Origin: Nitratiruptor sp. SB155-2
Lineage (GTDB): Bacteria; Campylobacterota; Campylobacteria; Campylobacterales; Nitratiruptoraceae
DNA: 64,000 bases
Reading direction: 5' to 3'
NCBI RefSeq assembly: GCF_000010325.1
Contig: NC_009662.1
Coordinates: forward strand, 248,001 to 312,000
Shown here: piece after piece, positions 18,932 to 56,292 of the stretch
Layout: each line of letters starts with the position of its first letter
Numbering within the stretch: the first letter of the stretch is position 1
Translations under genes and position numbers: made by a program
Notes under the pieces: generated by a model
What the model saw: the letters and a program-made list of their open reading frames with translations, nothing else
Told to the model about the DNA's origin: nothing
Database searches by the model: none

Positions 18932-19745
18932 TTTTGATCTGATCAAACTTCGTGATTTTATATTAGCTAAAACGGGTATTTATATTGATGATGACAAACT
19001 GTTTAAAATTTATAAAAGAAAGTTTGAAGATTTTATCCAAAAGCAAGGTTTTGATGATTTTAGCAGCTTTTATAATCGTCTTGTCTTTAAAAAAGATGAA
19101 CATTTATTGCAAGAACTTATCAATCTTACCACAGTCAATGAAACCTATTTTTTTCGTGAGGCTTATCAGTTTAAAACTCTTGTAGAAGAGGTATTGTCAG
19201 AACTTGATGGATTGCGTCCACCACATGAGTCGATCAATATTTTGACAGCTCCAAGCTCTTCAGGAGAGGAACTCTATTCTATTGCAATTTATATTATGGA
19301 GTATGCCAAAGAGATATTTTATAAAAGAGATTTTGTTTTAGTTGGAATAGATATTGATTCAGTTATGATTCAAAAAGCGAGGCAAGGTATTTTTAATCAA
19401 AGAAGTGTGAGTAAGATTCCTCCTCATCTTTTGCAAAAATATTTTATAAAAGAGGGTAATCAATATAAAATCATCGATGAGATACGAAAAGGCCTTACGT
19501 TTAAAGTGGTCAATGTTATGGACTTTTATGCAATGAAAAAACTTGGAAGATTTGATGTCATTTTTTCAAGAAATATGCTGATCTATTTTGATGAAAAAAC
19601 AAGAAAAGAGATACTGGCTACCTTTCATGCCCTTTTGAAACCACACGGATATCTCTTTTTGGGCCATGCTGAAAAAGTGCCGGTAGAGATGGAGATTTTT
19701 AAACGAGTGAAAAAAGGAGAGAGTATTATCTATCAAAAAGCTTAA
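18924..19745 (+). CDS. cheR: CheR-type chemoreceptor methyltransferase
   Basis: S-adenosylmethionine-dependent enzyme that methylates receptor glutamates, opposing CheB. The 273-residue product has the N-terminal helical domain ending in the signature LTTVNETYFFRE, a SAM-binding loop APSSSGEELYSIA (usually CSTGEEPYS, so the Cys is replaced by Ser), and FSRNMLIYFD. No pentapeptide-binding C-terminal extension is seen. ATG 18924 lies inside the preceding gene. Converges with the triple-CheW gene, overlapping it by 4 bp. Confidence 0.92.
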   Translation: MTDFDLIKLRDFILAKTGIYIDDDKLFKIYKRKFEDFIQKQGFDDFSSFYNRLVFKKDEHLLQELINLTTVNETYFFREAYQFKTLVEEVLSELDGLRPPHESINILTAPSSSGEELYSIAIYIMEYAKEIFYKRDFVLVGIDIDSVMIQKARQGIFNQRSVSKIPPHLLQKYFIKEGNQYKIIDEIRKGLTFKVVNVMDFYAMKKLGRFDVIFSRNMLIYFDEKTRKEILATFHALLKPHGYLFLGHAEKVPVEMEIFKRVKKGESIIYQKA

Positions 19746-21046
19746 TGAAAAGAGCTCCATCCTGTATTAAAAAGATTGAGAGATTTGTTTTTTAATGTGA
19801 CGATACCAGCACTAAGGGAAGTTTTATTAGATAAATGGGCAATATTACTCGAAGGAACTGAGACGATATCTTTGATATTATCAACGATGATAGCAAACTC
19901 TTCTCCTTCATCATTTTGTATAATAATAATTTTCGACTCATCATTTGGGATAAACTCTTTTTGTAAAATTTTTGCAATGTCTATAAGATAGTAGGTTTTG
20001 TTTTTATGTAAAATAAGTCCATAAACGTTTTTATTGGTTGTAAGAGCATTATTCGTGATGTTTGTTTTGGAAAACTCTAAAACAGTGACAACGTTTTTAA
20101 TGGGTATTGCATAATCTTCTTGAAAAAGTGAGAAAAGCAATAGGTCTTCTTCATTATTCTCGTTGTCTAGTTGTTTTTCTTTTTTCTGTGCTGTTAAGCC
20201 ATATTTGTTAATACTCTCTTGAAGAAATTGTGATGAAACAATAGGTATTATGCTATTTTGGTAGTGAAAATACCCTTCAAAAAGCTGATTGGTATCACTT
20301 TCGCTGACAATATTTTCGCGCTCTATGTCGACGAGACCCTCAATACGTTCTATTAAAAGTCCCAGTATTTTTGAATCATGTTGTAATATGATCACTGAAC
20401 CTTCTTTTAATGAGTCTGAATGCAATTTTTTTGCTAAATCGGCTACTTTCAAAGCTCTATTTTTATAGTTATAAATTCCTGTTATCCAATCGTGTTGCAA
20501 TTGTTGAACGGGTTTCATGTGTGATAATGGAACAATAGAGTGAATAAAGTTGTTATCAATAGCATAAAATTTGTCATTGAGTGTAAAAAGTAAGAAAGGA
20601 CGAAACTGCTCTTTTTGCTGTTTTATAATCTTTTTTTGTTCTGTTTGTTGTAATGGTGGTATTACAATAGATTGCAAAACATGATGCAGTGGTAATTCCT
20701 GAAAGACAACATCATCTTTTTCATATAAATCACCTGCTGTTGAGTTACTTTGTGTAAACTCTTCCAAGGCCAAAATCTCATCGATTAAAAATGCATATTT
20801 ATTATTATTGAAAGTGAGAAGGAGAACGGGTTTGTTGGAAACTTCATCACACTCTCCAATATTAAGAATTTTTTTTAGACAAAGTAGCAGAAAATGTGAT
20901 GAACCATGCTGTATACTTCCAATAACATATTCTGGCATGTGAAGCATTGGAGTTGTTTTTTTTGCATAAAAAATCTGTTGTATATATTCTGTCGAAACAA
21001 CATAGACATGGTTATCTATCCGAAATTTGATAATAGTTGTTTCCAT
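19742..21046 (-). CDS. Triple CheW-domain scaffold protein
   Basis: A 434-residue soluble protein made of three successive CheW-like modules, roughly residues 1-135, 149-285 and 300-430, each with the characteristic beta-rich pattern and a late IIDxI/LIERIEGLVDIE or IIVDNIKDIVSV segment. CheW couples receptors to the CheA kinase; proteins with three CheW units in tandem and no receiver domain are unusual. The modules are highly diverged from one another. It lies 2 nt after the double-tip receptor gene on the same strand, so the pair is surely one operon. Confidence 0.85.
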   Translation of the reverse strand: METTIIKFRIDNHVYVVSTEYIQQIFYAKKTTPMLHMPEYVIGSIQHGSSHFLLLCLKKILNIGECDEVSNKPVLLLTFNNNKYAFLIDEILALEEFTQSNSTAGDLYEKDDVVFQELPLHHVLQSIVIPPLQQTEQKKIIKQQKEQFRPFLLFTLNDKFYAIDNNFIHSIVPLSHMKPVQQLQHDWITGIYNYKNRALKVADLAKKLHSDSLKEGSVIILQHDSKILGLLIERIEGLVDIERENIVSESDTNQLFEGYFHYQNSIIPIVSSQFLQESINKYGLTAQKKEKQLDNENNEEDLLLFSLFQEDYAIPIKNVVTVLEFSKTNITNNALTTNKNVYGLILHKNKTYYLIDIAKILQKEFIPNDESKIIIIQNDEGEEFAIIVDNIKDIVSVPSSNIAHLSNKTSLSAGIVTLKNKSLNLFNTGWSSFH

Positions 21047-21048
21047 CT

Positions 21049-22941
21049 TTACAACCTTTGTGTAATGCGATTGATTTGAGTGATATCATTTTGCATTTCG
21101 TTGGCAATTTTTTGAATGATTTGTGCTGCTTCTTTTGACTGGGAAGCATTTGTAAAGCTAAGCTCAGCAGCTTGTTGTATCTGCTCAGATGCAATGAGTG
21201 ATTGTTCAAGAGCTTGTAACATCTGATTTGTCGCTTCGGAAAATGTTTTGATTGTTTTTTGGATATGATCGAGTTGCTGTACGTTTCTGGATAGTTCTGT
21301 TTTAAGTTTTTCAAGCTTATTGAGTTCCCTATCTTGAATCAAGATAATATTATTGATATCGACAAGCATTGTGTCATTTTGATCTTGGATCTCATCAATA
21401 ATTTCAATGATTTTATCAAGGTCGTTTTCTGAATCAATAGCAAGATTTCGAATATCGTTCGAAACTTCTCGAAATCCTTGCCCCTTTTCGCCAAGGCGAA
21501 TAGCTTCCAGAGCACCATTGATAGAGATACTTGCAACTTGGACAATAGCGAGTTCGATTTTTCGTATGAGATTACTAAGAGTTAAGATTTTAGATTTGAT
21601 GAATTGTAAGTCATTTTTCCGATCATTTGCAAGAGTATAATTTTGTTTTGTTGATTGTTGTACATTTGAGATAAGTTCTATAATAGTGTGAAATTCTTTT
21701 TGTACTTTTTTGATCTCTTCATAAACATTTTCGACCGTCCCTACACTTTCTTTTATATGTTGAACACATTTTTGAGCAACTTCTGCATTTGTTTTGGCAT
21801 CATTTTTAGCCAATTCTGCAGCTGTTTCAATTTGCATAAGTGCTTCTAATACCTGTTCCATAGAGTTATTGAGTTCATAAACAGAGCTTGAAAGTTCTTC
21901 TGAAGCTGTGGCTAATTCATGTTTGATACCCTCTTTATCGGTAGAATGAAGCGATTCTATGAGAATATTGATCATTTTAGCTGCTTCTTCTATTTGAGAA
22001 AATGCTGTGTTTTGCATACTGATAGTACTTGTTACTTGTGCCACCGCACTTGCACTCTCTTCTGCGGCACTGGCAATCGTTTCTGCACCTCTATGTAAAA
22101 TAGCGATTTCTTGGACTACTTTTTGAATATTTTGCAATAAGGCATCGATGTCTTTTACAAATTGCTCCATTGTGTGGACCATTGTTTCTATTTTTTGATA
22201 AGAGCTGTAGGCCTTTTGTGAAGATTTTTCCATTTCATCTTTGACTTGTAGAATGTCCGTTTTGCTTTTTTCTACTTTTTCTTTGATGATATCGACAACT
22301 TGTTCAATTTTATGGGCATAGACATTTGACTTTGAGGCAACTAAACGTATTTCACGAGCCATAACATTGAAAGACTCCCCCTCTTCTTTAACGCGACTTG
22401 CTTCAATGGCGGCATTTAAAGCAATGAGAGCAAGATTTCGAATGATATTGACTGCTTCTGTTATCTCTTGAGAAGTTTCAAAAAGTTCTTGACTTTTTTG
22501 GACAATATTACTAGCCCATTCTGAAGCTTGTTCCATCCCGTTTTTTGTATCACCTATACTTTCTTGCGTTTCTAAAAATATATCTTCCAACTCGTTGGAA
22601 ATGACGACGATTTTATTTGTCTCTTTTTCTAGCATTAAGGAGTTCTCTTTAATTTGTGTAATGGCGCTTAGACTCTCTTCTGCTGCTCCAGCGCTTTGTT
22701 CAGCTGCTGCAGCGATCTGTTCCATTGTTTGTTTCAGCTCTTCTATCGCAGTATATCCTTCGGCAATCTCTTTCAAAAAGTTTTGAGAGATACGGGCTAA
22801 TTCTTCTTGTATACTCTCATCAACTTTCTTCGCAACAGTGGATTGTGTTTTGATTGCTTGAGGAGTTTTTATAGATGGTTGAGATTGCTCTACCTGTTCC
22901 ATAGCTTGGTCGTCATGACTATAATGTTGTTTGAATGCCAT
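21049..22941 (-). CDS. Soluble methyl-accepting chemotaxis protein with two signalling tips
   Basis: A 630-residue, almost entirely coiled-coil protein with no transmembrane helix or signal peptide. It contains two receptor hairpin-tip sequences instead of one: residues 165-200 (LALIALNAAIEASRVKEEG then FNVMAREIRLVA) and a more diverged copy at 459-501 (GALEAIRLGEKGQGF then REVSNDIRNLA). Alanine/glutamate-rich segments resembling methylation regions occur near 75-95, 288-307 and 343-355. This looks like a fusion or internal duplication of cytoplasmic receptor domains. The ATG has an AAGGAG ribosome-binding site and a TATAAT (- strand, 22970-22975) 29 nt upstream. Confidence 0.88.
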   Translation of the reverse strand: MAFKQHYSHDDQAMEQVEQSQPSIKTPQAIKTQSTVAKKVDESIQEELARISQNFLKEIAEGYTAIEELKQTMEQIAAAAEQSAGAAEESLSAITQIKENSLMLEKETNKIVVISNELEDIFLETQESIGDTKNGMEQASEWASNIVQKSQELFETSQEITEAVNIIRNLALIALNAAIEASRVKEEGESFNVMAREIRLVASKSNVYAHKIEQVVDIIKEKVEKSKTDILQVKDEMEKSSQKAYSSYQKIETMVHTMEQFVKDIDALLQNIQKVVQEIAILHRGAETIASAAEESASAVAQVTSTISMQNTAFSQIEEAAKMINILIESLHSTDKEGIKHELATASEELSSSVYELNNSMEQVLEALMQIETAAELAKNDAKTNAEVAQKCVQHIKESVGTVENVYEEIKKVQKEFHTIIELISNVQQSTKQNYTLANDRKNDLQFIKSKILTLSNLIRKIELAIVQVASISINGALEAIRLGEKGQGFREVSNDIRNLAIDSENDLDKIIEIIDEIQDQNDTMLVDINNIILIQDRELNKLEKLKTELSRNVQQLDHIQKTIKTFSEATNQMLQALEQSLIASEQIQQAAELSFTNASQSKEAAQIIQKIANEMQNDITQINRITQRL

Positions 22942-34653: not shown

Positions 34654-36696
34654 GTGAGTAAAGTATATTTTTCGACATGGAAAGATGAATTTATTGACAA
34701 TCGGGGAAAACCGAAAGAGGAGTGGGCAGAGTCCGCTTTCAACTTTCCAGTCCAGTACAATACCGACATTGACTCAAAAGCCTTTATCGGTTGGGCCGGT
34801 ATTGCGCTTATGAGTGACGATGTAGATGTGGTAAAGCTTGCGACGGAATATGCCAAGCAGTACCAGGTTTATTCGGAAGCATGTGGAAGATGTGCTCCAG
34901 GAAGATGGGGAGGACGGATTCTTTACGATCTATTTGACAAGATTGCCAGAGGCGAAGGTGAAAAAAGTGACGTAGAGCACCTCAAAGAGGTCTCCAAAAC
35001 GATGATGGAGACCAGCAAATGTGAGATAGGTCGTACCGTTCCGAAACCGCTTCTTGATATATTGGAGCATTTTTCTGACGAGATCGATGATCTGATTCAA
35101 AATAAAAGAGCTTCCAAATACTACAACAACCCTGAAATCAGCTATATTGCAAAAGTGACGGCCCCTTGTATGGATGCATGTCCAAGTCATGTGGATATTC
35201 CTGCCTATATAGAAGGTGTACGAGATCTACGATATGACGATAGTTTAATGGCTACAAGAAAAACGATGCCACTTGCTCATACCTGTGGCCGTGTCTGTCC
35301 ACATCCTTGTGAAGATGAGTGTAGAAGGGCCAATCTGGATGAGCCGATCTCCATTATGGAGTTAAAGCGAATAGGTGCCGATTTTGAAGATGATCACGGA
35401 CTCTTCTGGCTCCATCCAAAGAAACAAAAACCGCTCAATGGCAAAAAAGTGGCCATTATCGGAGCCGGTCCTGCAGGTCTTGCAGGAGCCTATTATCTGG
35501 CCCTCGATGGGGTTGCTTGCGATGTGTATGAAGAGCTTCCGGTACTTGGTGGGGAAGTGGCCGTAGGTGTTCCTCAGTATCGAATGCCTGTAGAAAAATA
35601 CAATAAAGATATCGAAGCGGTTGCATCTCTTGAAGGCGTTCGATTTATCACGGGTAAACGGGTGACGGCTGATGACATGCGAAAGTTTGAAAAAGAGTAT
35701 GACGCTATTTTGGTGGCAACAGGAACAAGAATTTCCAAAAAAGTTCGCGCAAAGAATGAGCGAGAAGAGATCAAAGGGTATTGGCCGGCGATCAATTTCC
35801 TTGATTGTATCAACCTTTATGTCAAATATGGAATCCCGGTACCAAAAGAGATCCAAGAAAAACAGCACTTGAAAACAGATTATGTCGATTTAACAGGAAA
35901 AACCCTTGTTTGTGTTGGGGGAGGTTTTACCTCAATGGACGTGGTTCGGTGTGCCGTACGGGCCAATGCGAAAAAAGTGATCATGCTCTATCGTAGGGAT
36001 GAAGCTACAATCATTCGAAATACTACCTATGAAGAGTACCATGAAGCGGTGGAAGAGGGCGTGGAGTTTATCTTCTACTCTGCTGTCGAAGAGATTATTA
36101 CCGACGAGAATGACAACTTGAAAGCATTGAAAGTCAATCGATTTGAACTGATACCTGATCCAAACGGCGGGCGGCCACAGCTCAAAAAGATAGAGGGTGC
36201 AGACTTTACAATTGAATGTGATTACTTAGTGCCTGCAGTAAGTCAAAGCGCAGATCTCTCGCACCTGCCTGAAGAGTGGGAGATAGAACTGACAAGCTGG
36301 GGAACTATCAAAACAGACGGCAAAACCTATATGAGTTCAAAAAAAGGCGTTTTTGCTGCAGGGGACTGTGAATATGGACCGATGACTATCGTAAATGCTG
36401 TAGGACAGGCTAAACGCGCAGCTAGTGTCATCAGCCGTTATGTGCAAACAGGTGAAGTAACGCTTACTGATGAAGAGATTATGGAAGATCATTTAAGAGC
36501 TTTGAAAGTCTATGATAAGAAAGAGAAAGTGACGGGTTGGATGCCAGGTCTTCCGCGCCAAGTGAGTGAGAAGCTTACCGTCGAAGAGCGTAAACATACG
36601 CAACTGGAAGTCAATCTCGGATTCACACAGGAACAGGCCATTGCAGAGGCAGAGCGGTGTATGCGATGTTACTATATCGCTATGGTAGCGGTGTAA
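34654..36696 (+). CDS. NuoF-like/GltD-like fusion flavoprotein, complex I input module
   Basis: A 680-residue protein in the place of NuoF. Residues ~70-130 resemble the NuoF Fe-S region (CGRCAPGRWG, later SKCEIG), but the third Cys of CxxCxxC is Gly. Residues ~170-225 carry GltD-type Fe-S cysteines (C172, C176, C211, C215, C219, C223); ~265-600 is a two-dinucleotide-fold oxidoreductase with FAD motif IIGAGPAGLAGAYYL and NAD(P) motif VGGGFTSMDVVRCA; a CMRC pair lies near the C-terminus. It begins at GTG 34654 after GGGGGAAGATCCT. By homology with glutamate synthase small subunits it would take electrons from NAD(P)H or exchange them with ferredoxin. Confidence 0.9.
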   Translation: MSKVYFSTWKDEFIDNRGKPKEEWAESAFNFPVQYNTDIDSKAFIGWAGIALMSDDVDVVKLATEYAKQYQVYSEACGRCAPGRWGGRILYDLFDKIARGEGEKSDVEHLKEVSKTMMETSKCEIGRTVPKPLLDILEHFSDEIDDLIQNKRASKYYNNPEISYIAKVTAPCMDACPSHVDIPAYIEGVRDLRYDDSLMATRKTMPLAHTCGRVCPHPCEDECRRANLDEPISIMELKRIGADFEDDHGLFWLHPKKQKPLNGKKVAIIGAGPAGLAGAYYLALDGVACDVYEELPVLGGEVAVGVPQYRMPVEKYNKDIEAVASLEGVRFITGKRVTADDMRKFEKEYDAILVATGTRISKKVRAKNEREEIKGYWPAINFLDCINLYVKYGIPVPKEIQEKQHLKTDYVDLTGKTLVCVGGGFTSMDVVRCAVRANAKKVIMLYRRDEATIIRNTTYEEYHEAVEEGVEFIFYSAVEEIITDENDNLKALKVNRFELIPDPNGGRPQLKKIEGADFTIECDYLVPAVSQSADLSHLPEEWEIELTSWGTIKTDGKTYMSSKKGVFAAGDCEYGPMTIVNAVGQAKRAASVISRYVQTGEVTLTDEEIMEDHLRALKVYDKKEKVTGWMPGLPRQVSEKLTVEERKHTQLEVNLGFTQEQAIAEAERCMRCYYIAMVAV

Positions 36697-36705
36697 AGGT
36701 AGAGC

Positions 36706-38982
36706 ATGGTTAAGTTTACTATAGATGGAAGAACGGTTACTGCCCAAAAGGGTGAGACGATTTTACAGGTAGCAAGAAGAGAAGGAATCTACATACCAAC
36801 GATGTGCTATCTGACAAAAGTGAAACCTATCGAATCATGCAGACTCTGTGTGGTCGAAGTAGAAGGTGTTGATGGGTTTGTTCTCAGTTGCCAGACTCCA
36901 GTTGTTCCAGATATCGAAGTTAGAACAAATTCTGAAGAGCTTTACAAACATAGACAAAATATAATGCGCCTCTATGACGTAAACCACCCGCTGGAGTGTG
37001 GCGTATGCGATAAAAGTGGCGAGTGCGATCTTCAGAACAAAACGTTGGAGTTTGGAGTCGATACGCAAGAGTTTACGGCTAAAGACCAATACAGGCCCAT
37101 TCAAAAATGGAACTATATCCAGTATGATCCTAGCCTTTGTATCTTGTGTGAAAAGTGCGTCCATGTGTGCAACGAGGTGATCGGAGATGACGCTATTGAA
37201 ATAGAATATGGCGGATATAAATCGAAAATTGTTCCTAAAAATGCCGAGACACTCGATTGTACATTCTGTGGAGAGTGCATCGCTGTCTGTCCAGTGGGCG
37301 CACTGATAAGCAGCGATTTCAAATATACCTCCAATGCTTGGGAGCTCCAAAGAATCCCGGCAGCTTGTGCACACTGTAGTGCAGCGTGTCATCTTTTCTA
37401 TGAAACAAAACACAGCTCCATCGAAAATCCAGAACCAAAAATTTACCGAGTCAAAAACGATTTTGAGTTTGAAACCCTTTGTGGGGCGGGTCGATTTGGA
37501 TTCGATTTTGAGAACAAAGCCACAAAAGACGAAAAAGCATTTGAAAAGGCTTTAGAAGCTTTCAAGAAAGCGGATACCATTCGATTTACTTCCTATATCA
37601 CCAATGAAGAGGCGTTGATCCTCCAAAAACTGAAAGAGAAATTTGGTTATAAGCTTATCAATAATGAAGCAAGAAACTACCAAAAATTTTTACAAAACTA
37701 TGCTGCTTATAGCGGGAAAAATCTCTATGGAGCTGATTTAAAAACAATAGAGAAAAGCGACTTTATCATATTGCTTGGAAGTTTTGCTTCTTCAGACAAT
37801 CCTGCTGTACGCTATGCGTTCACGGTAGCACATAAACAAAGAAATGCCCAGATCATCAATATGCATCCAGTGGAAGACGATCTTCTCAAGCCTATCGTGA
37901 CAAAATTTGTCAAATATGAAGTTGGAAGCGAAGAAGCTGTCATGGGTATGCTGCTTGATGCTCTGCTTGATGAAGAGAGAAAATCTCAAATCGATCAAAA
38001 ATGGTTTGATGAACTGGATATGGGCTATTTGAGCGCAGAATCGAGTGTTGGTGAAGAGGAGATCGAAGATATCTTAGCGAAACTCAACCGCAAAAAAAGA
38101 CTTAAAGAAGATAGATTCACACTGATTCTCGGGGAGGATTTGTACGGGCATCCGAGAGCGGAGAATATAGCGCGATTGGCTGGGTTGATCGATCGATTCA
38201 CAGAGTTTGATGTGATGATCATACCACCTAAGACGAACAGTCTCGGCGTTGCGCTCATATGCGATTTGGATGATGAGGGCGGTGCATACAGTATAGGGTA
38301 CAACACGAAAGGGAACTTTACACTGAGTGCTTTGGGTGACGGCGATTTGGATATGCCGGCTCTCAATCAGCAAGAGGGGACTTTTACCAATATCGATAGA
38401 CGGGTAGTACCGACAAACGTGGCATTGCCATATGAGGGTTATGTACTGAATGACATTGCAAGAGCTCTTGAGGTGAGCGATAAAGAGTATACCATCGAAT
38501 TTACAAAAGAGCTGCCACAAGAGAAAGGGTATCAACCAATAGAGTTTGACGATCTGCCAAACGAGTTTTTGAATGATGGAAGCGAGCGGCGAGGATACGT
38601 GATCGAGCCACAGAGAGTGAATCTGTCAAGGAAGAACGTAGAGCCGATAGCTGAACTGCCTGAATTCAATGGTACAGTGATCTATCGCTGCGAGCCTGTA
38701 TTGCAGTTTAGCCCTTTCACCAACAAAGCACATCAGCTCAACTGGTCCTGTGATCTTATTGGATCAGAGCAGTTTTCCATAGCTGCCAAACTTAGTGATG
38801 GCGATAAAGTTGTTGTTCAAACAAAATTTGGTGCAATAGCAAAAACGTTTCGTATCGATCCTAAACTAAAGGGCACTGTTGCCTTATTAGGAGTAAGTGA
38901 TATGGGGATAGAGTTTTTTGATATGCAGTCATCCTACAGATATGAACGAGTAAAAATCACAAAGAGAGCGGATCATGAGTGA
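36706..38982 (+). CDS. nuoG: NADH-quinone oxidoreductase subunit G, copy 1
   Basis: The large Fe-S subunit of the peripheral arm, 758 residues: N-terminal 2Fe-2S ferredoxin domain (CYLTKVKPIESCRLC), a His/Cys cluster HPLECGVCDKSGECDLQ, two 4Fe-4S motifs (CILCEKCVHVC, CTFCGECIAVCPVG) and an N7-type site CAHCSAAC, then a molybdopterin-enzyme-like domain. It shares an apparently identical 622-bp tract (38115-38736) and a 165-bp near-identical tract (37498-37662) with the next gene, whereas the rest has diverged. The C-terminus differs from copy 2. Ends with an 8-nt overlap. Confidence 0.95.
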   Translation: MVKFTIDGRTVTAQKGETILQVARREGIYIPTMCYLTKVKPIESCRLCVVEVEGVDGFVLSCQTPVVPDIEVRTNSEELYKHRQNIMRLYDVNHPLECGVCDKSGECDLQNKTLEFGVDTQEFTAKDQYRPIQKWNYIQYDPSLCILCEKCVHVCNEVIGDDAIEIEYGGYKSKIVPKNAETLDCTFCGECIAVCPVGALISSDFKYTSNAWELQRIPAACAHCSAACHLFYETKHSSIENPEPKIYRVKNDFEFETLCGAGRFGFDFENKATKDEKAFEKALEAFKKADTIRFTSYITNEEALILQKLKEKFGYKLINNEARNYQKFLQNYAAYSGKNLYGADLKTIEKSDFIILLGSFASSDNPAVRYAFTVAHKQRNAQIINMHPVEDDLLKPIVTKFVKYEVGSEEAVMGMLLDALLDEERKSQIDQKWFDELDMGYLSAESSVGEEEIEDILAKLNRKKRLKEDRFTLILGEDLYGHPRAENIARLAGLIDRFTEFDVMIIPPKTNSLGVALICDLDDEGGAYSIGYNTKGNFTLSALGDGDLDMPALNQQEGTFTNIDRRVVPTNVALPYEGYVLNDIARALEVSDKEYTIEFTKELPQEKGYQPIEFDDLPNEFLNDGSERRGYVIEPQRVNLSRKNVEPIAELPEFNGTVIYRCEPVLQFSPFTNKAHQLNWSCDLIGSEQFSIAAKLSDGDKVVVQTKFGAIAKTFRIDPKLKGTVALLGVSDMGIEFFDMQSSYRYERVKITKRADHE
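37498..37662 (+). repeat. Near-identical 165-bp tract A, nuoG copy 1
   Basis: Matches 39839-40003 in copy 2 with only two differences that I can see (a G/A around 37555 and a T/C at 37650), while flanking sequence diverges at once. It encodes the segment GFDFENKATKDEKAF onward. Interpreted as a gene-conversion tract. Confidence 0.9.
38115..38736 (+). repeat. Identical 622-bp tract B, nuoG copy 1
   Basis: Read base by base, this matches 40606-41227 in copy 2 without a difference, with abrupt loss of similarity at both ends. It encodes about 207 residues of the C-terminal domain, from FTLILGEDLYGHP to NKAHQ. Confidence 0.93.
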
Positions 38983-41458
38983 AAAGATTAAGATTACGAT
39001 AGATGGAAAAGAGTGTGAAACCGTAGCAGGTGAGTATGTTCTCAATGTTGCCAGGGCCAATGGTATCTTTATCCCTGCCATCTGTTACCTAACAAGTTGC
39101 TCTCCAACATTGGCATGTAGGCTATGCCTCGTAGAAGCTGACGGTAAACAGGTTTATGCATGTAACGCCAAAGCCAAAGATGGCATGAATATCGTTACCG
39201 TTACGGAAAATATTCTCAAAGAGCGCCGCGCCATAATGGAAGTGTATGATGTGAACCACCCGCTGGAGTGTGGCGTATGTGATCAAAGTGGCGAATGCGA
39301 GTTGCAAAACTACACATTAGAGATGAAAGTGGATGAGCAGCACTACGCCATTCGAGACACCTATAGACCTGTCAAAAAATGGAATTTTATCCATTATGAC
39401 TCTTCACTTTGTATCGTTTGTGAACGTTGTGTAACTGTATGTAAAGATATGATAGGCGACGCGGCACTCAAAACCGTTCCAAGAGGCGGGGACAAACTTG
39501 GCAAAGAGTGGAAAGACGAGATGCCAAAAGATGCCTATGCCATGTGGAACAAGCTTCAAAAATCGATTATCGGAGCGGTAACAGGCGAAGAGCTCGATTG
39601 TACTTGGTGTGGTGAGTGTATCAGTGTTTGTCCGGTTGGAGCACTTGTTAGTGAAGATTATCACTATACAACCAACTCTTGGGAACTTACGAAAATTCCA
39701 GCGGCCTGTGCACATTGTAGTGCTACGTGCCACATGTACTATGAAACAAAACATACCTCCATCGAAAACCCAGAACCAAAAATCTATCGTGTCACAAATG
39801 AGTTCCATTATCAGCCACTCTGTGGTGCAGGACGGTTCGGATTCGATTTTGAGAACAAAGCCACAAAAGACGAAAAAGCATTTGAAAAGGCTTTAAAAGC
39901 TTTCAAGAAAGCGGATACCATTCGATTTACTTCCTATATCACCAATGAAGAGGCGTTGATCCTCCAAAAACTGAAAGAGAAATTTGGTTACAAGCTTATC
40001 AATGAAGATGCTAAGCAGTATAAACAGTTTTTAGACAACTTCAGCCAATATAGTGGAAAATCTCTACCAACAGCGGATGTGAAAACAGTGCATCACAGTC
40101 AATTTGTAGTTTCTATAGGGACAGCGCTGAAAAGTGACAATCCAAGAGTGCGATTTGCATTTAACAATGCTGTGAAAATGAACAAAGGCGGAGGGATCTA
40201 TTTCCACCCAATAAAAGATCCTGTCATTGAATCTCTTGGCAAAACTGTTGTTCCTGTTTATCATAAACCTTTGAAAGAGGAAGCTGCGCTCTATCTCATT
40301 TTGCAAGAGTTTGCAGATAAAGAGAAATTACCAAAATATGTGAAAGAGTATCTTGACTCATTGATCGTTACGAAAACCAAAGAGGTAGAAGAGACCATCA
40401 AAGAAAAAGTAGTGGAAATTGTAGAAGAAACAGTTGTTGACGAAAAAACGGGCGAAGAGAAAAAAGTCGAGAAGAAAGTGGAGAAAGAGGTCCCCAAAAA
40501 GGTTAAAAAAGAGGTTGAGTATCAGGTAAGCAAACTTTATGAGATGCTAGATGCGTCTGAAGACCTGATGGACAAACTAGGTAAAGTACTATCGAAAGCT
40601 GAAAAATTCACACTGATTCTCGGGGAGGATTTGTACGGGCATCCGAGAGCGGAGAATATAGCGCGATTGGCTGGGTTGATCGATCGATTCACAGAGTTTG
40701 ATGTGATGATCATACCACCTAAGACGAACAGTCTCGGCGTTGCGCTCATATGCGATTTGGATGATGAGGGCGGTGCATACAGTATAGGGTACAACACGAA
40801 AGGGAACTTTACACTGAGTGCTTTGGGTGACGGCGATTTGGATATGCCGGCTCTCAATCAGCAAGAGGGGACTTTTACCAATATCGATAGACGGGTAGTA
40901 CCGACAAACGTGGCATTGCCATATGAGGGTTATGTACTGAATGACATTGCAAGAGCTCTTGAGGTGAGCGATAAAGAGTATACCATCGAATTTACAAAAG
41001 AGCTGCCACAAGAGAAAGGGTATCAACCAATAGAGTTTGACGATCTGCCAAACGAGTTTTTGAATGATGGAAGCGAGCGGCGAGGATACGTGATCGAGCC
41101 ACAGAGAGTGAATCTGTCAAGGAAGAACGTAGAGCCGATAGCTGAACTGCCTGAATTCAATGGTACAGTGATCTATCGCTGCGAGCCTGTATTGCAGTTT
41201 AGCCCTTTCACCAACAAAGCACATCAGTTGACAGAGAGTGCAAAACTGTATGCAAGTGAAACATTTTTGAATGAATTGGGCCTTCAAGAGGGCGATAAAG
41301 TAAACATTCAAAAAGATGATACTAATATTACAGTAGAAGTTGCCCTTGACGACAAAATTGGATCGGGAGCCTATATAGGCACATTTGATAAGAACATTGA
41401 TATATCACCGCTATTTGCGGGATATCGATTTAGCGAAGTACAAATTCAAAAGGTGTGA
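38975..41458 (+). CDS. nuoG: NADH-quinone oxidoreductase subunit G, copy 2
   Basis: A second NuoG of 827 residues with the same cluster motifs (HPLECGVCDQSGECELQ, CIVCERCVTVC, CTWCGECISVCPVG, CAHCSATC). Relative to copy 1 it has an extra segment between the Fe-S motifs (about 166-200, RGGDKLGKEWKDEMPKD) and a highly charged Lys/Glu insertion of about 65 residues (roughly 465-530; EETIKEKVVEIVEETVVDEK and after) before the converted tract. It overlaps copy 1 by 8 nt. Both copies keep all visible ligands, so both could be part of one complex or alternative forms. Confidence 0.94.
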   Translation: MSEKIKITIDGKECETVAGEYVLNVARANGIFIPAICYLTSCSPTLACRLCLVEADGKQVYACNAKAKDGMNIVTVTENILKERRAIMEVYDVNHPLECGVCDQSGECELQNYTLEMKVDEQHYAIRDTYRPVKKWNFIHYDSSLCIVCERCVTVCKDMIGDAALKTVPRGGDKLGKEWKDEMPKDAYAMWNKLQKSIIGAVTGEELDCTWCGECISVCPVGALVSEDYHYTTNSWELTKIPAACAHCSATCHMYYETKHTSIENPEPKIYRVTNEFHYQPLCGAGRFGFDFENKATKDEKAFEKALKAFKKADTIRFTSYITNEEALILQKLKEKFGYKLINEDAKQYKQFLDNFSQYSGKSLPTADVKTVHHSQFVVSIGTALKSDNPRVRFAFNNAVKMNKGGGIYFHPIKDPVIESLGKTVVPVYHKPLKEEAALYLILQEFADKEKLPKYVKEYLDSLIVTKTKEVEETIKEKVVEIVEETVVDEKTGEEKKVEKKVEKEVPKKVKKEVEYQVSKLYEMLDASEDLMDKLGKVLSKAEKFTLILGEDLYGHPRAENIARLAGLIDRFTEFDVMIIPPKTNSLGVALICDLDDEGGAYSIGYNTKGNFTLSALGDGDLDMPALNQQEGTFTNIDRRVVPTNVALPYEGYVLNDIARALEVSDKEYTIEFTKELPQEKGYQPIEFDDLPNEFLNDGSERRGYVIEPQRVNLSRKNVEPIAELPEFNGTVIYRCEPVLQFSPFTNKAHQLTESAKLYASETFLNELGLQEGDKVNIQKDDTNITVEVALDDKIGSGAYIGTFDKNIDISPLFAGYRFSEVQIQKV
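39839..40003 (+). repeat. Near-identical 165-bp tract A, nuoG copy 2
   Basis: Partner of 37498-37662; two differences seen across 165 bp. The offset between copies is 2341 bp here but 2491 bp for tract B, so the two tracts are independent alignments separated by the charged insertion. Confidence 0.9.
40606..41227 (+). repeat. Identical 622-bp tract B, nuoG copy 2
   Basis: Partner of 38115-38736. No difference was seen at any position, including third codon positions. Confidence 0.93.
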
Positions 41459-41459
41459 C

Positions 41460-42452
41460 ATGGATGCAGCGTTTGTAATAGCAACCATCATTAAGATACT
41501 GATCGTACTGGGACTCTTTTCAGCACTAGCTGGATTTGGTACCTATGTGGAAAGAAAAGTGCTTGCATTTATGCAGCGTCGTCTTGGTCCGATGCACGTT
41601 GGACCATACGGTTTACTGCAGGTTCTTGCCGATGGTATCAAGCTCTTTACAAAAGAGGATTTTATACCGCAAGGAGCGGTTCGACCTGTTTTTATGATAG
41701 CTCCTGTCATTACGGCTGCTACTGCTTTTATCGCTATGGCGGCGATTCCGATGTTTCCAGAATTTACAATCGGCGGATATACTGTTAAACCGATCATTTC
41801 TGACATCAATGTTGGGTTACTCTTTGTTTTAGGTGTTATGGCTGCAGGGCTGTATGGACCACTTCTAGCCGGTATGTCTTCCGGAAACAAATGGGCGTTA
41901 CTCGGTGCTGCCCGGACTGCAATCCAGTTTTTAAGCTATGAAGTTGTAACCGGACTTTCTGTATTGGCACCAGTGATGATAGTAGGATCCATCTCGTTGG
42001 TAGATTTTAACAATTACCAGGCAGGAGGCATGGGAAATTGGCTTATTTGGAAACAGCCTCTTGCATTTGTGCTTTTCTTGATTGCGGGATATGCGGAGAC
42101 AAACAGAACGCCGTTTGATTTACTCGAACATGAAGCGGAAGTGATCTCAGGGTATGCTACAGAGTACAGCGGTATGCGATGGGGGATGTTTTTTATTGGT
42201 GAATATGCAAACATGTTCACGATAGGATTTTTGGTTAGTCTCATTTTTCTTGGCGGATTTAACGATTGGGGATTTATTCCAGGCGCAATCGCAATTTTGA
42301 TCAAAGTCTTTTTCTTTTTCTTTCTTTTCTTGTGGACAAGAGCATCTTGGCCACATGTGCGACCGGATCAATTGATGTGGCTCTGCTGGAAAGTTTTGAT
42401 GCCGCTAGCAGTGATCAATGTTGTGATTACCGGCATTGTGATGAGTATCTAA
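41460..42452 (+). CDS. nuoH: NADH-quinone oxidoreductase subunit H
   Basis: Membrane subunit joining the quinone chamber to the proton-pumping arm. I choose ATG 41460 (MDAAFVIATIIKIL), giving 330 residues and about eight transmembrane helices; the longer frame reads back into nuoG. Signatures YVERKVLAFMQRRLGPMHVGPYG and AETNRTPFDLLEHEAEVISG are intact. An AAAAGGTGTGAC site precedes it. Confidence 0.96.
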   Translation: MDAAFVIATIIKILIVLGLFSALAGFGTYVERKVLAFMQRRLGPMHVGPYGLLQVLADGIKLFTKEDFIPQGAVRPVFMIAPVITAATAFIAMAAIPMFPEFTIGGYTVKPIISDINVGLLFVLGVMAAGLYGPLLAGMSSGNKWALLGAARTAIQFLSYEVVTGLSVLAPVMIVGSISLVDFNNYQAGGMGNWLIWKQPLAFVLFLIAGYAETNRTPFDLLEHEAEVISGYATEYSGMRWGMFFIGEYANMFTIGFLVSLIFLGGFNDWGFIPGAIAILIKVFFFFFLFLWTRASWPHVRPDQLMWLCWKVLMPLAVINVVITGIVMSI

Positions 42453-50766: not shown

Positions 50767-52650
50767 TTAGTTTTTTATGTAAAACTCTAACGTTTCTGGC
50801 TTTCCAAGATAGAATCCCTGTCCATATCGTATACCAAGTCTTTGGACAAGTTCTAATGTTTTTTGATTGTGAATAAATTCTGCTACTGTTTTTATATTGA
50901 GTTCATTAGCAAAAAGAGCGATAGATTTTGTGATAGTATAGGAAATACGTGACTGCTCCAAATTTTTAATTAATTCACCATCTATTTTTAAAATGTCGAT
51001 CGGTAGATGCTGAAAAATGGTAAAATTGGAATATCCACTTCCAAAATCATCTATAGCAACCTCTATTCCGTAGGTTTTAATTTTATTGAGCCTTTGTTTT
51101 AATTGTTCCATATGGCTTGATTCGTACTCCAAAAGTTCAATGGTAAGCCATTTTGCCAATGTTTTATTGCGTTCAATCTCGTTTAATATCGTTGTATAGA
51201 TAACGTTATCTAAAAGATCAGAGACATTGAGGTTGATGCTAATATGTACTTTGTATTTTTTTATGGCATTAAAAACAATTTCAATGACCCTTTTGGTTAA
51301 GTCATTATACACATTTGTATATGCGATCGGGGTCAAAAATCTATTTGGCGGAACAATGTTGCCATTTTGATCAAACATTCGTGCCAATGCTTCAAATTTT
51401 ACTATTTTATCTGTATATAAATCTCTAATTGGTTGATAATGACAAATGATTCTATTTTCTTCTAGAGCTTCTTTAACACTGTTGATATTGATATCTTGGA
51501 AATTGCCCTTTTGTGTTGAAACAGTTCCATCGATAACCTGGTTTCTTCCCTGTCTTTTAGCGATATAAAGCATTTCATCTGCATATTTGATAGCTTCTAT
51601 CGGATTTTTAAAATGTTCTGGATGGAGGTTGACTCCTACGGAGATTGTTATTTTAATATGATGGTTATTGTAGATGAAATCTTTTATTTCTATAATTTTC
51701 CTGATACGGTTTGCTATATCGATTGCTATATTGGAATTTTTATTTTCTCTATGAATGAAGAGCAAAAACTCTTCCCCGCCATATCGGATTAAATAGTCCT
51801 CTTCACGAATATTTTTTTTCATCAAATTGGCAACTTCTTGTAAAATGAAGTCTCCAGCTTTATGACCATAAACATCATTGATTTTCTTGAAATGGTCGAC
51901 ATCAAGCATAAGAATTTGGTACCGATCGGGTTGAAAACTAGTGAGAAATGTTCGTAGGAACTTACGGTTGTAAATTTGAGTGAGAGGATCTAAAAAACTT
52001 TCTTTTTTGGTTTTGATATTGATATATGTTTGCCAAAGAACAATCATAAGTAGAAGAGCAATAGAGAGAAAAATGTAATAGAAAATATTTTTTATAGGCT
52101 GTATAACAGTATTGACTGTTTTGGGTAGATTGGTAGAAAAATCGATTGCAATAATTGCTTGCGTTTTTCCATGGTACTGAATAGGTTTGAGATAGGTACC
52201 CCATAGTGTTCCTATATCAAATTCTGAAATAATCTCTTCTGTATTACTATCATATACTTTGTTCCAACGTTTTTTATCAACATTCAATGGTGCGTCAAAC
52301 TCACCTCTGTCACTTTTGCTCCCATCCAAAAGATACCTATATTTACCCTTTTTGTCTCTATAGAGCACATAGACATATTTAAATGTAGGAGTAATAAGCA
52401 GTGAGAGAGCTTCTTGAAGGTTTTTTCGTAATTGAGGATTTTTTTGAAGAGTTGGATAGAGATTATTGGGAATCTCTTTTTTTATGAGATCTTCTATATT
52501 GTTTGCAAAATATTTTGCTTGTTGGGTAAAAATATTTTCTATATTGGTTAGGAAATGTCTATTCGCATATGAAACTGTAAAAAAGAGATATGTTATTGAA
52601 ATAAGAATAATAGTAATTAACAAAAAATATACATATTTATAGTTTTTCAA
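50767..52650 (-). CDS. Membrane GGDEF-EAL cyclic-di-GMP enzyme
   Basis: A 627-residue bifunctional protein. A periplasmic sensor of about 160 residues lies between two transmembrane helices (about 7-27 and 189-208). The GGDEF domain has GGEEF at 291-295, an active-form cyclase motif. The EAL domain keeps E420-A-L, N474, E505, DDFGSG (534-539), K555 and E591, so phosphodiesterase activity is also plausible. It is the last gene of a TonB receptor-periplasmic protein-cyclase operon, overlapping the preceding gene by 4 bp. Confidence 0.92.
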   Translation of the reverse strand: MKNYKYVYFLLITIILISITYLFFTVSYANRHFLTNIENIFTQQAKYFANNIEDLIKKEIPNNLYPTLQKNPQLRKNLQEALSLLITPTFKYVYVLYRDKKGKYRYLLDGSKSDRGEFDAPLNVDKKRWNKVYDSNTEEIISEFDIGTLWGTYLKPIQYHGKTQAIIAIDFSTNLPKTVNTVIQPIKNIFYYIFLSIALLLMIVLWQTYINIKTKKESFLDPLTQIYNRKFLRTFLTSFQPDRYQILMLDVDHFKKINDVYGHKAGDFILQEVANLMKKNIREEDYLIRYGGEEFLLFIHRENKNSNIAIDIANRIRKIIEIKDFIYNNHHIKITISVGVNLHPEHFKNPIEAIKYADEMLYIAKRQGRNQVIDGTVSTQKGNFQDININSVKEALEENRIICHYQPIRDLYTDKIVKFEALARMFDQNGNIVPPNRFLTPIAYTNVYNDLTKRVIEIVFNAIKKYKVHISINLNVSDLLDNVIYTTILNEIERNKTLAKWLTIELLEYESSHMEQLKQRLNKIKTYGIEVAIDDFGSGYSNFTIFQHLPIDILKIDGELIKNLEQSRISYTITKSIALFANELNIKTVAEFIHNQKTLELVQRLGIRYGQGFYLGKPETLEFYIKN

Positions 52651-53066
52651 AAGGACTCCTCCTCATATTTTTGGAGTTCTTTTGGTAATATCAGATGATA
52701 CTTTTGTAAATTTGGTTTAATAAAAATAAGGTTTGGCCGTCCTTTTTGCCAATAAAATCCACCTATAGCCTGCTCTTTGTAAATCTTTAAAAGATTGTAT
52801 GAACCCACAAAAATCATTTTATCTGTTTTAATATTGGGTGTATGGTAAAGAATTAATATATCTGCATTCGATTTGTGAGTTAATTTTATATTCAATGGTA
52901 ACAGTTTTAAAAGATCTTCTTTTGTTGGATCATCGGTCCATATTCTAATGATGGAGTCTTTTGGGAAAAGGGCTTTCAAGATCGTCGTATAGATTTTTTG
53001 TTCTGTCGTAAGAGGAGAACTCAACAAAAAGCATGTAAATACCAATATTAAAAAAAACTTTTTCAA
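52647..53066 (-). CDS. Periplasmic protein, possibly YfiR-like regulator
   Basis: A 139-residue exported protein (signal KKFFLILVFTCFLLSSP). I choose TTG at 53066, which overlaps the receptor stop as TTGA and has GGAG 8 nt upstream; an in-frame ATG 24 nt earlier is the alternative. The mature domain has alternating strands such as IIRIWTDDPTKEDLL, ADILILYH and IGGFYWQKGRPNLIFI, which recall the YfiR/DUF4154 pattern of periplasmic inhibitors of membrane cyclases. The match is weak; genetic context is the stronger argument. Confidence 0.7.
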   Translation of the reverse strand: MKKFFLILVFTCFLLSSPLTTEQKIYTTILKALFPKDSIIRIWTDDPTKEDLLKLLPLNIKLTHKSNADILILYHTPNIKTDKMIFVGSYNLLKIYKEQAIGGFYWQKGRPNLIFIKPNLQKYHLILPKELQKYEEESF

Positions 53067-54925
53067 AATAGATACTCCACATTGATCCAAAATTTTCTAT
53101 CTGTTACAGGTATGGCATACGGAAAATTACGATATGCTTGTTTAAAACCTCTACCGAAAATATTTTCTCCCCGGATCCCAAGAGACAGATCTTTTGTAAT
53201 GTGATATTTAATAGCCGCAGTATAATCAATTGATGCATCAACTTTAATACCAGCATATTCATAACTGCTTTTATAGATGAGTTCATTATACAGATCGAGT
53301 TTCCCATAAGTGTTGAATGCTTGAAAAAAAGCTCCGTATTTTGGGGAATATTCTATATTTTGATTATTGTATCCTCTAAAAATAGCCAATTTATATCTAT
53401 TGAACAGATCTTGATGATAGTCATATTCTATAGAAAATGTGGTTTTTCTAATAACATTGCCACTATAATTTTGATATCCTGAAGGTGTGTAGAGAATAGG
53501 GTTTTTCGCTTTGTTAAAACCTAATTGGAAACGAAAAGAGTGTTGATCATCAAGTTTATATTGCAGACTAGATGCCAATGCAAATATTTCGGGCGGTTTT
53601 AGTTTGCTATTTGCTTTAAAAGGTATTTTATTAGGAGAGTAGAGTTTGTAGAAATCAATAGGTTGATACGTATCGATAAGAAAAATTTTGAATTTCCCAT
53701 TGTTGAAGTTTTGTAAATATCCAATTCTTACTACCGATCTGTTTCTGTTTGGTACAACTTTGTCATATCGATAGAAATCTTGCTTGAAGGAGGCTACTAC
53801 AGTTTTATATTCATCTATCTTGTATCTGTCTTCACAATATAATGAAAACAATTTCAGTCCGTTTCCATAGCTAGTCGTTGTAGTATCAAATCTCCCATCC
53901 ATAGTAAATTTTTTATATTTATAAAATCCACCGAGTAAAATAGAATTTTTTCCATACTCAAAAAACCTTTCTGCAACCAATGAGAAGATATCGTCTTTAA
54001 AATGTGTTTTGTAATATGTTACTAATCCTAAGTTGCCGGCAGGAACTCCTGACGGATCAATATACGTTCTGTCATAATATAAGTTATCATAGGCAACTTG
54101 AAACTTGTAGTCATATTTGTTCGATGTTGTTATGTGGATATATTGATGCTGGGCTTCCAGTCCTCCACCATCAGGTGTATAGTTTCTACTATGTCCTAAA
54201 AAGGAATCACTCTTTTTTTTGTAATTGCCTATCTCGATTCTGTAATCGTTATAAAATATATTTGTATACATATTGTATCCATCTTTATCACTGCTTATTC
54301 TATGGTTGAGATGGAAATAGTCTTTATGATTGATATTTTCACTATTAACATATGCAAACCATGAAAGTTTGGTGTCAGTAGTATGTGCGTAGTAAAGATC
54401 CGTTTCGTAGCTATTTTTGTTATCCAAAAGAAGTCTAACTTTTCCACCCTCTTCACGTTCCGGTCGTTTTGTGTAGAGTTTAATAATAAAAAGACCAGTT
54501 TCATTGCCGAATTCAATAGAGGATGAACCTCTATAAAACTCGATATGATCGATATACTCTATCGGCATATCACCCCATATCAGTAATGCACTACCAAAAG
54601 AAGAAGAGGTCATATCATGATCATTTATATAAAGACGTATTGCACTAAGAGGTAGATATCCAGCTGAAGGAAATGAGAAGAGATGGACATTATTGGGAGT
54701 TCTTGTTAAATGAAGAAGACGGACTATCTTTAAAACATCAAGAAGTGTGCGTACCTGCATTTTTTCTAGATCGTCACGTGTGAAAATATCTATTAGCCCC
54801 GCACTCTCTTTTTTGGTAACTTTGGACAATTCCGATTCTTTTCTATATTCTTGCAGTAGTTTTTCTATGTTTTCACTGGCAAAAGAGTATAGAGTAAGCA
54901 TAATCAGCATTAAAAATATTTTCAT
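53063..54925 (-). CDS. TonB-dependent-receptor-like outer-membrane protein
   Basis: A 620-residue protein with a signal peptide (MKIFLMLIMLTLYSFASEN), a plug domain (about 50-165: IDIFTRDDLEKMQVRTLLDVL, then IEYIDHIEFYRGSSSIEFGN) and a beta-barrel rich in aromatic alternating strands ending in a terminal Phe (NVEYLF). The ATG at 54925 follows GGAG; the longer frame upstream has no signal peptide. I see no clear TonB box. It heads an operon with a periplasmic protein and a cyclic-di-GMP enzyme, so it may act as a ligand sensor rather than, or as well as, a transporter. Confidence 0.85.
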   Translation of the reverse strand: MKIFLMLIMLTLYSFASENIEKLLQEYRKESELSKVTKKESAGLIDIFTRDDLEKMQVRTLLDVLKIVRLLHLTRTPNNVHLFSFPSAGYLPLSAIRLYINDHDMTSSSFGSALLIWGDMPIEYIDHIEFYRGSSSIEFGNETGLFIIKLYTKRPEREEGGKVRLLLDNKNSYETDLYYAHTTDTKLSWFAYVNSENINHKDYFHLNHRISSDKDGYNMYTNIFYNDYRIEIGNYKKKSDSFLGHSRNYTPDGGGLEAQHQYIHITTSNKYDYKFQVAYDNLYYDRTYIDPSGVPAGNLGLVTYYKTHFKDDIFSLVAERFFEYGKNSILLGGFYKYKKFTMDGRFDTTTTSYGNGLKLFSLYCEDRYKIDEYKTVVASFKQDFYRYDKVVPNRNRSVVRIGYLQNFNNGKFKIFLIDTYQPIDFYKLYSPNKIPFKANSKLKPPEIFALASSLQYKLDDQHSFRFQLGFNKAKNPILYTPSGYQNYSGNVIRKTTFSIEYDYHQDLFNRYKLAIFRGYNNQNIEYSPKYGAFFQAFNTYGKLDLYNELIYKSSYEYAGIKVDASIDYTAAIKYHITKDLSLGIRGENIFGRGFKQAYRNFPYAIPVTDRKFWINVEYLF

Positions 54926-55106
54926 ATGAACTCCAAAATATGAAAATGTCATGTTTAATTTAGTTTGAATAGGTTTGATTATATCAAAGCTATTTTTAAA
55001 AACGATATCAAGGAATATCAATGTTTTGTTGGATAGTCTTGTTGTATAACGTAAAAATTACATATTCTTTAATTTTGAATAAATATATAAGTTAGTTTTT
55101 GAGGAT

Positions 55107-55148
55107 AGTGGTCAGAGGCGGGTTCGAACCACCGACACAGGGAGTTTT
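55107..55148 (-). pseudogene. Truncated tRNA-Phe-like fragment
   Basis: About 42 bp here resemble the 3' half of the intact tRNA-Phe at 58593-58668: the T-arm and part of the anticodon arm are recognisable (shared TTCGAACC and CCGACACAGGGA blocks), with several substitutions. Similarity stops in the anticodon stem, so it cannot fold as a tRNA. Partial tRNA copies of this kind commonly mark the far end of integrated elements. Confidence 0.65.
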
Positions 55149-55281
55149 CTTCTCATCCAAAATTATGTATATTCTTTTAAGCCTCATTTCAATATTTTCT
55201 TAAAAAGCATTATGAGTACCATGTGTATTGGAATCATACACATATTTGACAAAAGATATTGGTTTATATATACTCATTCTT

Positions 55282-55575
55282 ATGAAAAATATAAGATTTA
55301 TGCTTCTTCTTTTACTTTCTTTATTTATCCTTGATTCAGTTACTACCACATTTATTCCTTTGCAGAGTGATATTCAAATTTTGTGTGAAGAAAAAAATAA
55401 AGATTATAATGAAAAGGAGGATTGCAATGACAAGGAGGAGCTAGAGGATAACATAAAATATCTAAGTCTAGATTCCATGTTATATATGATTCTAGAAAAA
55501 GTATTAAATTTTCGTGATACTGATTTATTTGATAACCACAATCTGCACAAAATCTTCAAACCCCCTATCGTATAG
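55282..55575 (+). CDS. Small signal-peptide-bearing hypothetical protein
   Basis: A 97-residue product from ATG 55282 with a hydrophobic N-terminus (KNIRFMLLLLLSLFILDS) and an acidic/Lys-rich middle (EEKNKDYNEKEDCNDKEELE). The reading frame is open upstream to 55228, but that part lacks a signal-like start. No clear ribosome-binding site precedes either start and no family is recognised, so it may not be expressed. It lies just upstream of the carbonic anhydrase gene, inside the tRNA-flanked segment. Confidence 0.45.
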   Translation: MKNIRFMLLLLLSLFILDSVTTTFIPLQSDIQILCEEKNKDYNEKEDCNDKEELEDNIKYLSLDSMLYMILEKVLNFRDTDLFDNHNLHKIFKPPIV

Positions 55576-55638
55576 TATCTTTCCCCAAACATCTACAAAA
55601 CTATACAAACACAATTAATTGAACAATAGGGAGATACT

Positions 55639-56292
55639 ATGCAAGAAAAACTATTATTTTGGCGCAACAGGAATAATAATTTCAAAAATCACTATTTTAA
55701 AAAATTTGAAAACAGGCTAACTGATCTAGTCAAATACGGACAGCATCCAAAGGCACTTTTTATAGGCTGTTCAGACTCAAGAGTGATTCCAAATCTTATC
55801 ACTCAAACCGATCCTGGTGATCTTTTTATCATCAGAAACGTTGGTAACTTTGTACCACCGTTTTCTCCAAATAACAGTTATCATGCGGTTGCTTCGGCGA
55901 TAGAATATGCAGTTGAAGCACTAAAAGTTGAAGAGATAATTGTTTGTGGTCATACCCATTGTGGTGCAATCAACTCTCTCTATACAGGTTTGGATGAAAA
56001 ATCTTTTGTTCATACTAAAAGATGGCTTGCACTAGGAAGCAAAGCAAAAGAGATGGCTGTATCTAAAATGAAAACAGATGAACCAACCTCTGAGCTCTTG
56101 CGATTGACTGAAAAATACTCTGTCATAACGCAAATAGAGAATTTATTGACCTATCCCACTGTTAAAGAGAAAGTAGAAACTGGAGAAATCATAATCCATG
56201 GATGGATTTATGATTTGGAAACAGGAGGCATCGAATATTTTGATATGGAATCCAAAGAGTTTAAACCATTTGAACAGAATAAGGAGCAGTAA
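55639..56292 (+). CDS. Beta-class carbonic anhydrase
   Basis: Interconverts CO2 and bicarbonate. The 217-residue protein has the beta-CA zinc ligands C44 and D46 in GCSDSRV, with the D46-R48 dyad, and H105 and C108 in GHTHCGA. The ATG follows AGGGAGATACT. It abuts the SulP transporter gene with no gap, so the two products likely act together in inorganic carbon supply for an autotroph. Confidence 0.94.
   Translation: MQEKLLFWRNRNNNFKNHYFKKFENRLTDLVKYGQHPKALFIGCSDSRVIPNLITQTDPGDLFIIRNVGNFVPPFSPNNSYHAVASAIEYAVEALKVEEIIVCGHTHCGAINSLYTGLDEKSFVHTKRWLALGSKAKEMAVSKMKTDEPTSELLRLTEKYSVITQIENLLTYPTVKEKVETGEIIIHGWIYDLETGGIEYFDMESKEFKPFEQNKEQ

Follow-up and report, generated by a model that had tools for sequence, protein, structure and literature searches.

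The window analysed here, 64,000 nucleotides of the genome of Nitratiruptor sp. SB155-2 (NC_009662.1, positions 248,001 to 312,000), contains two tandem nuoG genes of complex I, copy A (36706–38982, 758 aa) and copy B (38975–41458, 827 aa), and raises the question of how two paralogues that are diverged over most of their length can come to share 622 consecutive bases without a single difference. Our answer, to which we give a probability of roughly 90 %, is that recurrent gene conversion, limited to particular segments, has acted between ancient nuoG paralogues A and B in the family to which the window belongs. Positions are those of the window, and all features lie on the forward strand; G and L codes denote the genomes and loci compared, G000 being the window's own genome.

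The longer shared segment, tract 2, occupies 38115–38736 in copy A (residues A470–677) and 40606–41227 in copy B (B544–751), with 0 differences in 622 positions and abrupt edges, the flanking bases 38114 and 38737 already differing between the copies. Tract 1 occupies 37498–37662 in A (A265–319) and 39839–40003 in B (B289–343), shows two differences in 165 positions (at 37555 and 37650), and is present also in G036, G051, G090 and G077. Both tracts, and the offsets of 2341 and 2491 between their copies, had been described in an earlier reading made from the sequence alone (the sequence-only reading), and our counts agree with it exactly. They agree too with the divergence that it reported elsewhere: outside the tracts, nucleotide identity between A and B is mostly 0.35–0.8 in 20-codon windows, and the A-specific middle (37663–38114, ~0.25 amino acid identity to B) and tail (38737–38982, ~0.29) have not been exchanged, neither showing an excess of similarity to the B copy of its own genome. 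When the codon columns were shuffled 2000 times, the longest identical run averaged 24 bases and never exceeded 51, against the 622 observed; with tract 2 removed, the longest run was 94 against a shuffled maximum of 32. A third match, of 26 bases, in the Fe–S (iron–sulphur) region had been listed together with the tracts. It exists (36982–37007 in A and 39254–39279 in B, offset 2272), although its position in B had been placed one base too low, and it exceeds its own shuffles; yet it falls within a conserved motif, YDVNHPLECGVCD, and relatives that have no tract usually show exact runs of 13–38 nt, several of them in the same Fe–S stretch. For these reasons we regard it as motif conservation and do not count it as conversion.

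Ten complete A/B pairs from three genera of the family were available, and in each genome A was aligned to B and runs of identity were sought. The tract 2 segment (A ~470–680, B ~544–753) was 97–100 % identical within the genome in nine of the ten pairs, over a length of 540–631 nt (100 % in five, 99.7–99.8 % in two and 97–98 % in two). Its edges fall at A469–476 and A677–681, except in G126, where the tract has shrunk to A493–672; tract 1 lies at A ~260–340 in several species. The proportion of synonymous differences (pS) between a genome's own copies of tract 2 was 0.00 in six of the ten genomes, 0.02 in G090, 0.11 in G077, 0.19 in G126 and 0.70 in G154, set against a median of ~0.75 between species. 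In the N-terminus, middle and tail, A and B differ at a pS of ~0.5–0.9 and a proportion of non-synonymous differences (pN) of ~0.3–0.55. Across the family, A and B of the same genome had an amino acid identity of 0.982 in tract 2, compared with 0.829 for copies from other genomes, and a synonymous identity of 0.934 compared with 0.513. The contrast is sharpest between close relatives. G000 and its nearest relative, G036, differ from one another at 62 of 612 tract positions, while the two copies within either genome do not differ at all; over ~136 synonymous sites this sets an upper bound of ~0.02 on own-copy divergence, compared with 0.40 between the two species. Similarly, there are 26 tract differences between G148 and G064 and 0 between the copies of either. 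As the own copies are identical while the genomes differ at 62 of 612 positions, the lineages of G000 and G036 must both have undergone conversion since they split, and late.

The duplication itself is much older. Sixty loci were inspected in the order, and those with a NuoF-like gene mostly have both A and B in the same gene order; in an N-terminal tree of 43 genomes all A sequences separate from all B sequences, as clades of 43 rows each with support of 100. In the tract 2 tree, by contrast, the copies of every family genome pair together, even those of G154. Topology tests agree with this conflict: a single clade of all A sequences was rejected for tract 2 (approximately unbiased (AU) test, p 2.6e-5), and a grouping of A with B of G000 was rejected for the N-terminus (p 8e-65). 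In the tract 1 tree the whole of family f4 groups A with B (support 97), and loci L057 and L080 tend the same way, although resolution is weak. Because A and B were duplicated before the family arose, these patterns point to gene conversion that has recurred within it. The sequence-only reading had foreseen that trees of the segment would bring together the paralogues of a species, and trees of the flanking regions the orthologues, and had proposed ongoing homogenisation of the C-terminal segment; regional synonymous divergence, related pairs and trees bear out both. What it called recent conversion is indeed recent, but the tract has also been made anew in every lineage of the family.

Outside the family the trace is fainter. 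For 33 genomes of other families, the B copy of the same genome was compared with the B copies of other genomes as a match to A. No long recent tract was found in any of these pairs, the longest exact runs being 13–38 nt. There was an own-genome amino acid excess of up to 0.06 at A ~256–326 and A473–660 (permutation p 0.0005 for the two segments) and an excess close to zero over the remaining parts (N-terminus, middle and tail), even though N-terminal stretches of A and B are at least as similar to each other. The silent-site excess in both segments was no larger than in control regions, so that the exchanges in other families would be older, or the signal partly one of co-adaptation. A/B exchange in these families is detectable only in the segments of tract 1 and tract 2, where it appears to be older and rarer.

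We envisage that the segments, direct repeats with a spacing of 2.49 kb, are paired through homologous recombination, probably once replication has produced sister chromosomes on which they can meet, and that one copy of the tract would then overwrite the other without crossover; a crossover between the tracts would delete the intervening 2.49 kb. The fixed edges may have their cause in the middle and tail, which have almost no DNA similarity and would carry what distinguishes A from B, so that conversions passing the edges would be blocked or selected against. Inside the segment A and B presumably do the same job, and exchange would be tolerated. As to a DNA signal at the edges, edge sequences vary among species and only the position in the protein is common to them, although motifs and Chi sites were not searched for formally. 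N-terminal stretches such as A184–264 have 70–75 % A/B DNA identity, comparable to that of unconverted tract 1 (76 % in G018), yet show no clear exchange, which suggests that the N-terminus is shielded by selection and not by dissimilarity alone. We infer that selection likewise sets the tract edges. In predicted AlphaFold models of A and B, which have mean predicted local distance difference test (pLDDT) scores of 78 and 81 and match NuoG/Nqo3 and formate dehydrogenase alpha chains, tract 2 begins at a beta-strand (A471–475, B545–549) and stops in the linker that precedes the final, beta-rich part, and tract 1 spans a helix–strand–helix unit (A276–318); the Fe–S part of the models was poorly predicted and was excluded from use. 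From these borders the exchanged segments seem to correspond to structural units within the molybdopterin-oxidoreductase-like part of the protein. The sequence profile of tract 2 alone gave no meaningful match to solved structures, and the mapping of this tract therefore draws on the secondary structure of the predicted models.

Other explanations for the shared tract have been considered. Six hundred and twenty-two identical bases in adjacent genes might at first suggest that the second gene arose lately and that only parts of it have diverged so far, and a recent duplication patchwork was indeed one of the possibilities raised by the sequence-only reading. However, A and B form separate clades with the same gene order throughout the order, and the flanks of the tract are near saturation at silent sites; we rejected this explanation on the N-terminal tree and the topology tests, and consider it extremely improbable. 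Equally little probability attaches to strong purifying selection as the sole force keeping the segment alike in both genes. The segment is certainly conserved, and the tract of G154, no longer converted, has a pN of 0.08 against a pS of 0.70; but selection on the protein does not explain silent sites that are identical within genomes and ~0.75 different between species, and this synonymous identity led us to reject it. An assembly artefact is brought to mind by short-read metagenome-assembled genomes (MAGs) of the family, which break in or at the tract (G115, G152, G153, G156, G157 and G159, for example), although we also count these breaks as a sign of recombination. The window's genome, however, is one closed contig, so that collapse of a repeat provides no explanation for its tract, and G036, G018, G051, G090, G064 and G077, assembled in one or two contigs, show a two-copy tract with species-specific sequence. 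An artefact, rejected on these grounds, is therefore very unlikely.

Unequal crossing-over merits somewhat more weight, although we still think it improbable other than as a possible contributor. Here the pair would expand to three genes by recombination between the tracts and then contract, leaving identical tracts and unchanged flanks. Tandem direct repeats do recombine readily, and locus L098 (3416–5686) resembles a product of such contraction, being a single fused nuoG with the start of A, the tract and the tail of B, followed by nuoH. Against this, a three-gene array was present in none of the loci inspected, expansion and contraction would be needed in each lineage, and L098 comes from a short-read MAG, in which the fusion may reflect either a true deletion of 2.5 kb or a collapse during assembly.

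Several observations nonetheless weigh against recurrent, segment-limited conversion, or qualify it. Conversion events have not been observed directly, and neither direction, A to B or B to A, was favoured when tract 2 was compared with the A and B sequences of other families (AU p 0.35 and 0.36). In G154 (L094) the tract copies have clearly drifted apart, with 133 of 612 bases different, most of them silently. This divergence, together with the pS of 0.19 in G126, means that exact identity of the tract is not required, and G154 provides a natural control for whether tract identity matters. The tract edges would not be absolute if L042, contig 77 of the MAG G137, is taken at face value: its gene A has a B-type middle, an A-type middle was not found in the G137 genome, and the contig stops inside tract 1 of B, so that a long conversion or an assembly chimera may be responsible. 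On the side of recombination, by contrast, the G+C content of third codon positions in tract 2 relative to its own flanks was +0.082 in the family and -0.001 in others, a comparison (Mann–Whitney p 2e-5) made among related, not independent, genomes; for fourfold codons the values were +0.059 in the family and -0.006 in other families. The rise is seen in most family members but hardly at all in G051. GC-biased gene conversion in bacterial genomes raises silent-position G+C in recombining sequence (PMC4450053), and in the nuoG pair a rise of the kind expected is seen by segment within a single gene pair, which is suggestive only.

Relatives with only one full nuoG provide a side result that is relevant to function. 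Between their nuoE-like gene and nuoG lies a gene of 234–339 aa which is a shrunken A: the A profile matches it at ~A345–505 and A635–750 with E-values of 1e-19 to 1e-68, and it has lost the Fe–S part together with tract 1 and the tract 2 core (loci L063–L066, L068, L069, L074, L075, L077, L078, L081 and L090–L092). No significant Pfam family was found for these proteins. The parts retained are largely those that A does not share with B. The shrunken gene occupies the position of Campylobacter cj1574c, a gene of flavodoxin coupling; in C. jejuni the places of nuoE and nuoF are taken by cj1575c and cj1574c, and electrons from flavodoxin are transferred by way of Cj1574c (PMC4178425). By its locus position, Cj1574c is a candidate relic of gene A. 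The map of exchanged and non-exchanged segments connects the duplicate NuoG to the flavodoxin-type input gene of Campylobacter, and suggests which parts of NuoG define the duplicate's separate role. It is tempting, if doubtful, to speculate that A and B work as neighbours within one complex I, or are alternative arms on one base, that the exchanged segments are their common core, and that the middle and tail of A dock an electron-input partner; these would persist in single-nuoG relatives as a small cj1574c-type subunit, with exchange occurring order-wide and bounded by function.

Long-lasting, domain-limited concerted evolution is a known phenomenon, and its closest case is that of mtrA-1 and mtrA-2 in methanogenic archaea (PMC4632066). 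As with nuoG A and B, both copies belong to a single operon for a membrane energy-converting complex, long-lasting gene conversion homogenises one domain within species while another part stays distinct, and the paralogues cluster in trees with the orthologue topology rejected. The non-exchanged part of mtrA is a transmembrane domain, shuffled or fused, whereas both nuoG genes are full-length homologues in a bacterial respiratory complex I and the exchange affects internal segments with the same edges family-wide. A list of 26 prokaryotic genes with long-lasting concerted evolution likewise describes recurrent conversion between paralogues, including tuf and another complex I subunit gene, nuoL in Aquificales (PMC6053082); nuoG is absent from its Tables 1 and 2. 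Our search of mainly open-access literature found nothing relevant, either about conversion of nuoG or about paired nuoG genes in this group. What is new, then, is the gene, the lineage, the fixed internal edges across a family and the weaker trace in the same segments across an order. The pair provides a clean bacterial case in which two paralogues have diverged and both been kept, while conversion has long persisted in fixed internal segments only. It can therefore serve to find out whether the edges are set by natural selection or by a lack of DNA similarity. A practical consequence is that the tract distorts nuoG-based trees as well as the assembly of these bacteria from short reads.

The window is part of a closed contig of 1,877,931 bases, and its complex I operon runs nuoB, nuoC, nuoD, a NuoE-like gene, a NuoF/GltD-type flavoprotein gene, nuoG A, nuoG B, nuoH and nuoI. 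Both A (968 bits) and B (1263 bits) exceed the curated cut-off of 591 for NF006305, the NuoG of Campylobacterota, and both fall below the cut-off of 470 of the general NuoG model TIGR01973 (237 and 194 bits); both are NuoG proteins of the divergent NF006305 type. The ligands of the first two N-terminal Fe–S clusters are invariant in copy A (C34, C45, C48, C62, H94, C98, C101 and C107) and in copy B (C37, C48, C51, C63, H95, C99, C102 and C108). The Fe–S regions may be specialising, as had been proposed from the sequence alone, with the cluster ligands retained in both copies. Upstream of A, the gene at 34654–36696 (PF10589, PF14691, PF07992) fuses the NuoF Fe–S region with a GltD-type flavoprotein (Fer4_20 and Pyr_redox_2), and by virtue of this fusion the electron input of the Nitratiruptor complex I would be unlike that of a standard NuoF. 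Downstream of B, nuoH is placed at 41409–42452 with an inferred start codon, the matches to PF00146 and NF004741 having been obtained with the open reading frame 41385–42452. Elsewhere in the window, two stretches at ~18000–22000 and 51000–56000 have a G+C content of ~0.30–0.34, compared with ~0.40 in their surroundings.
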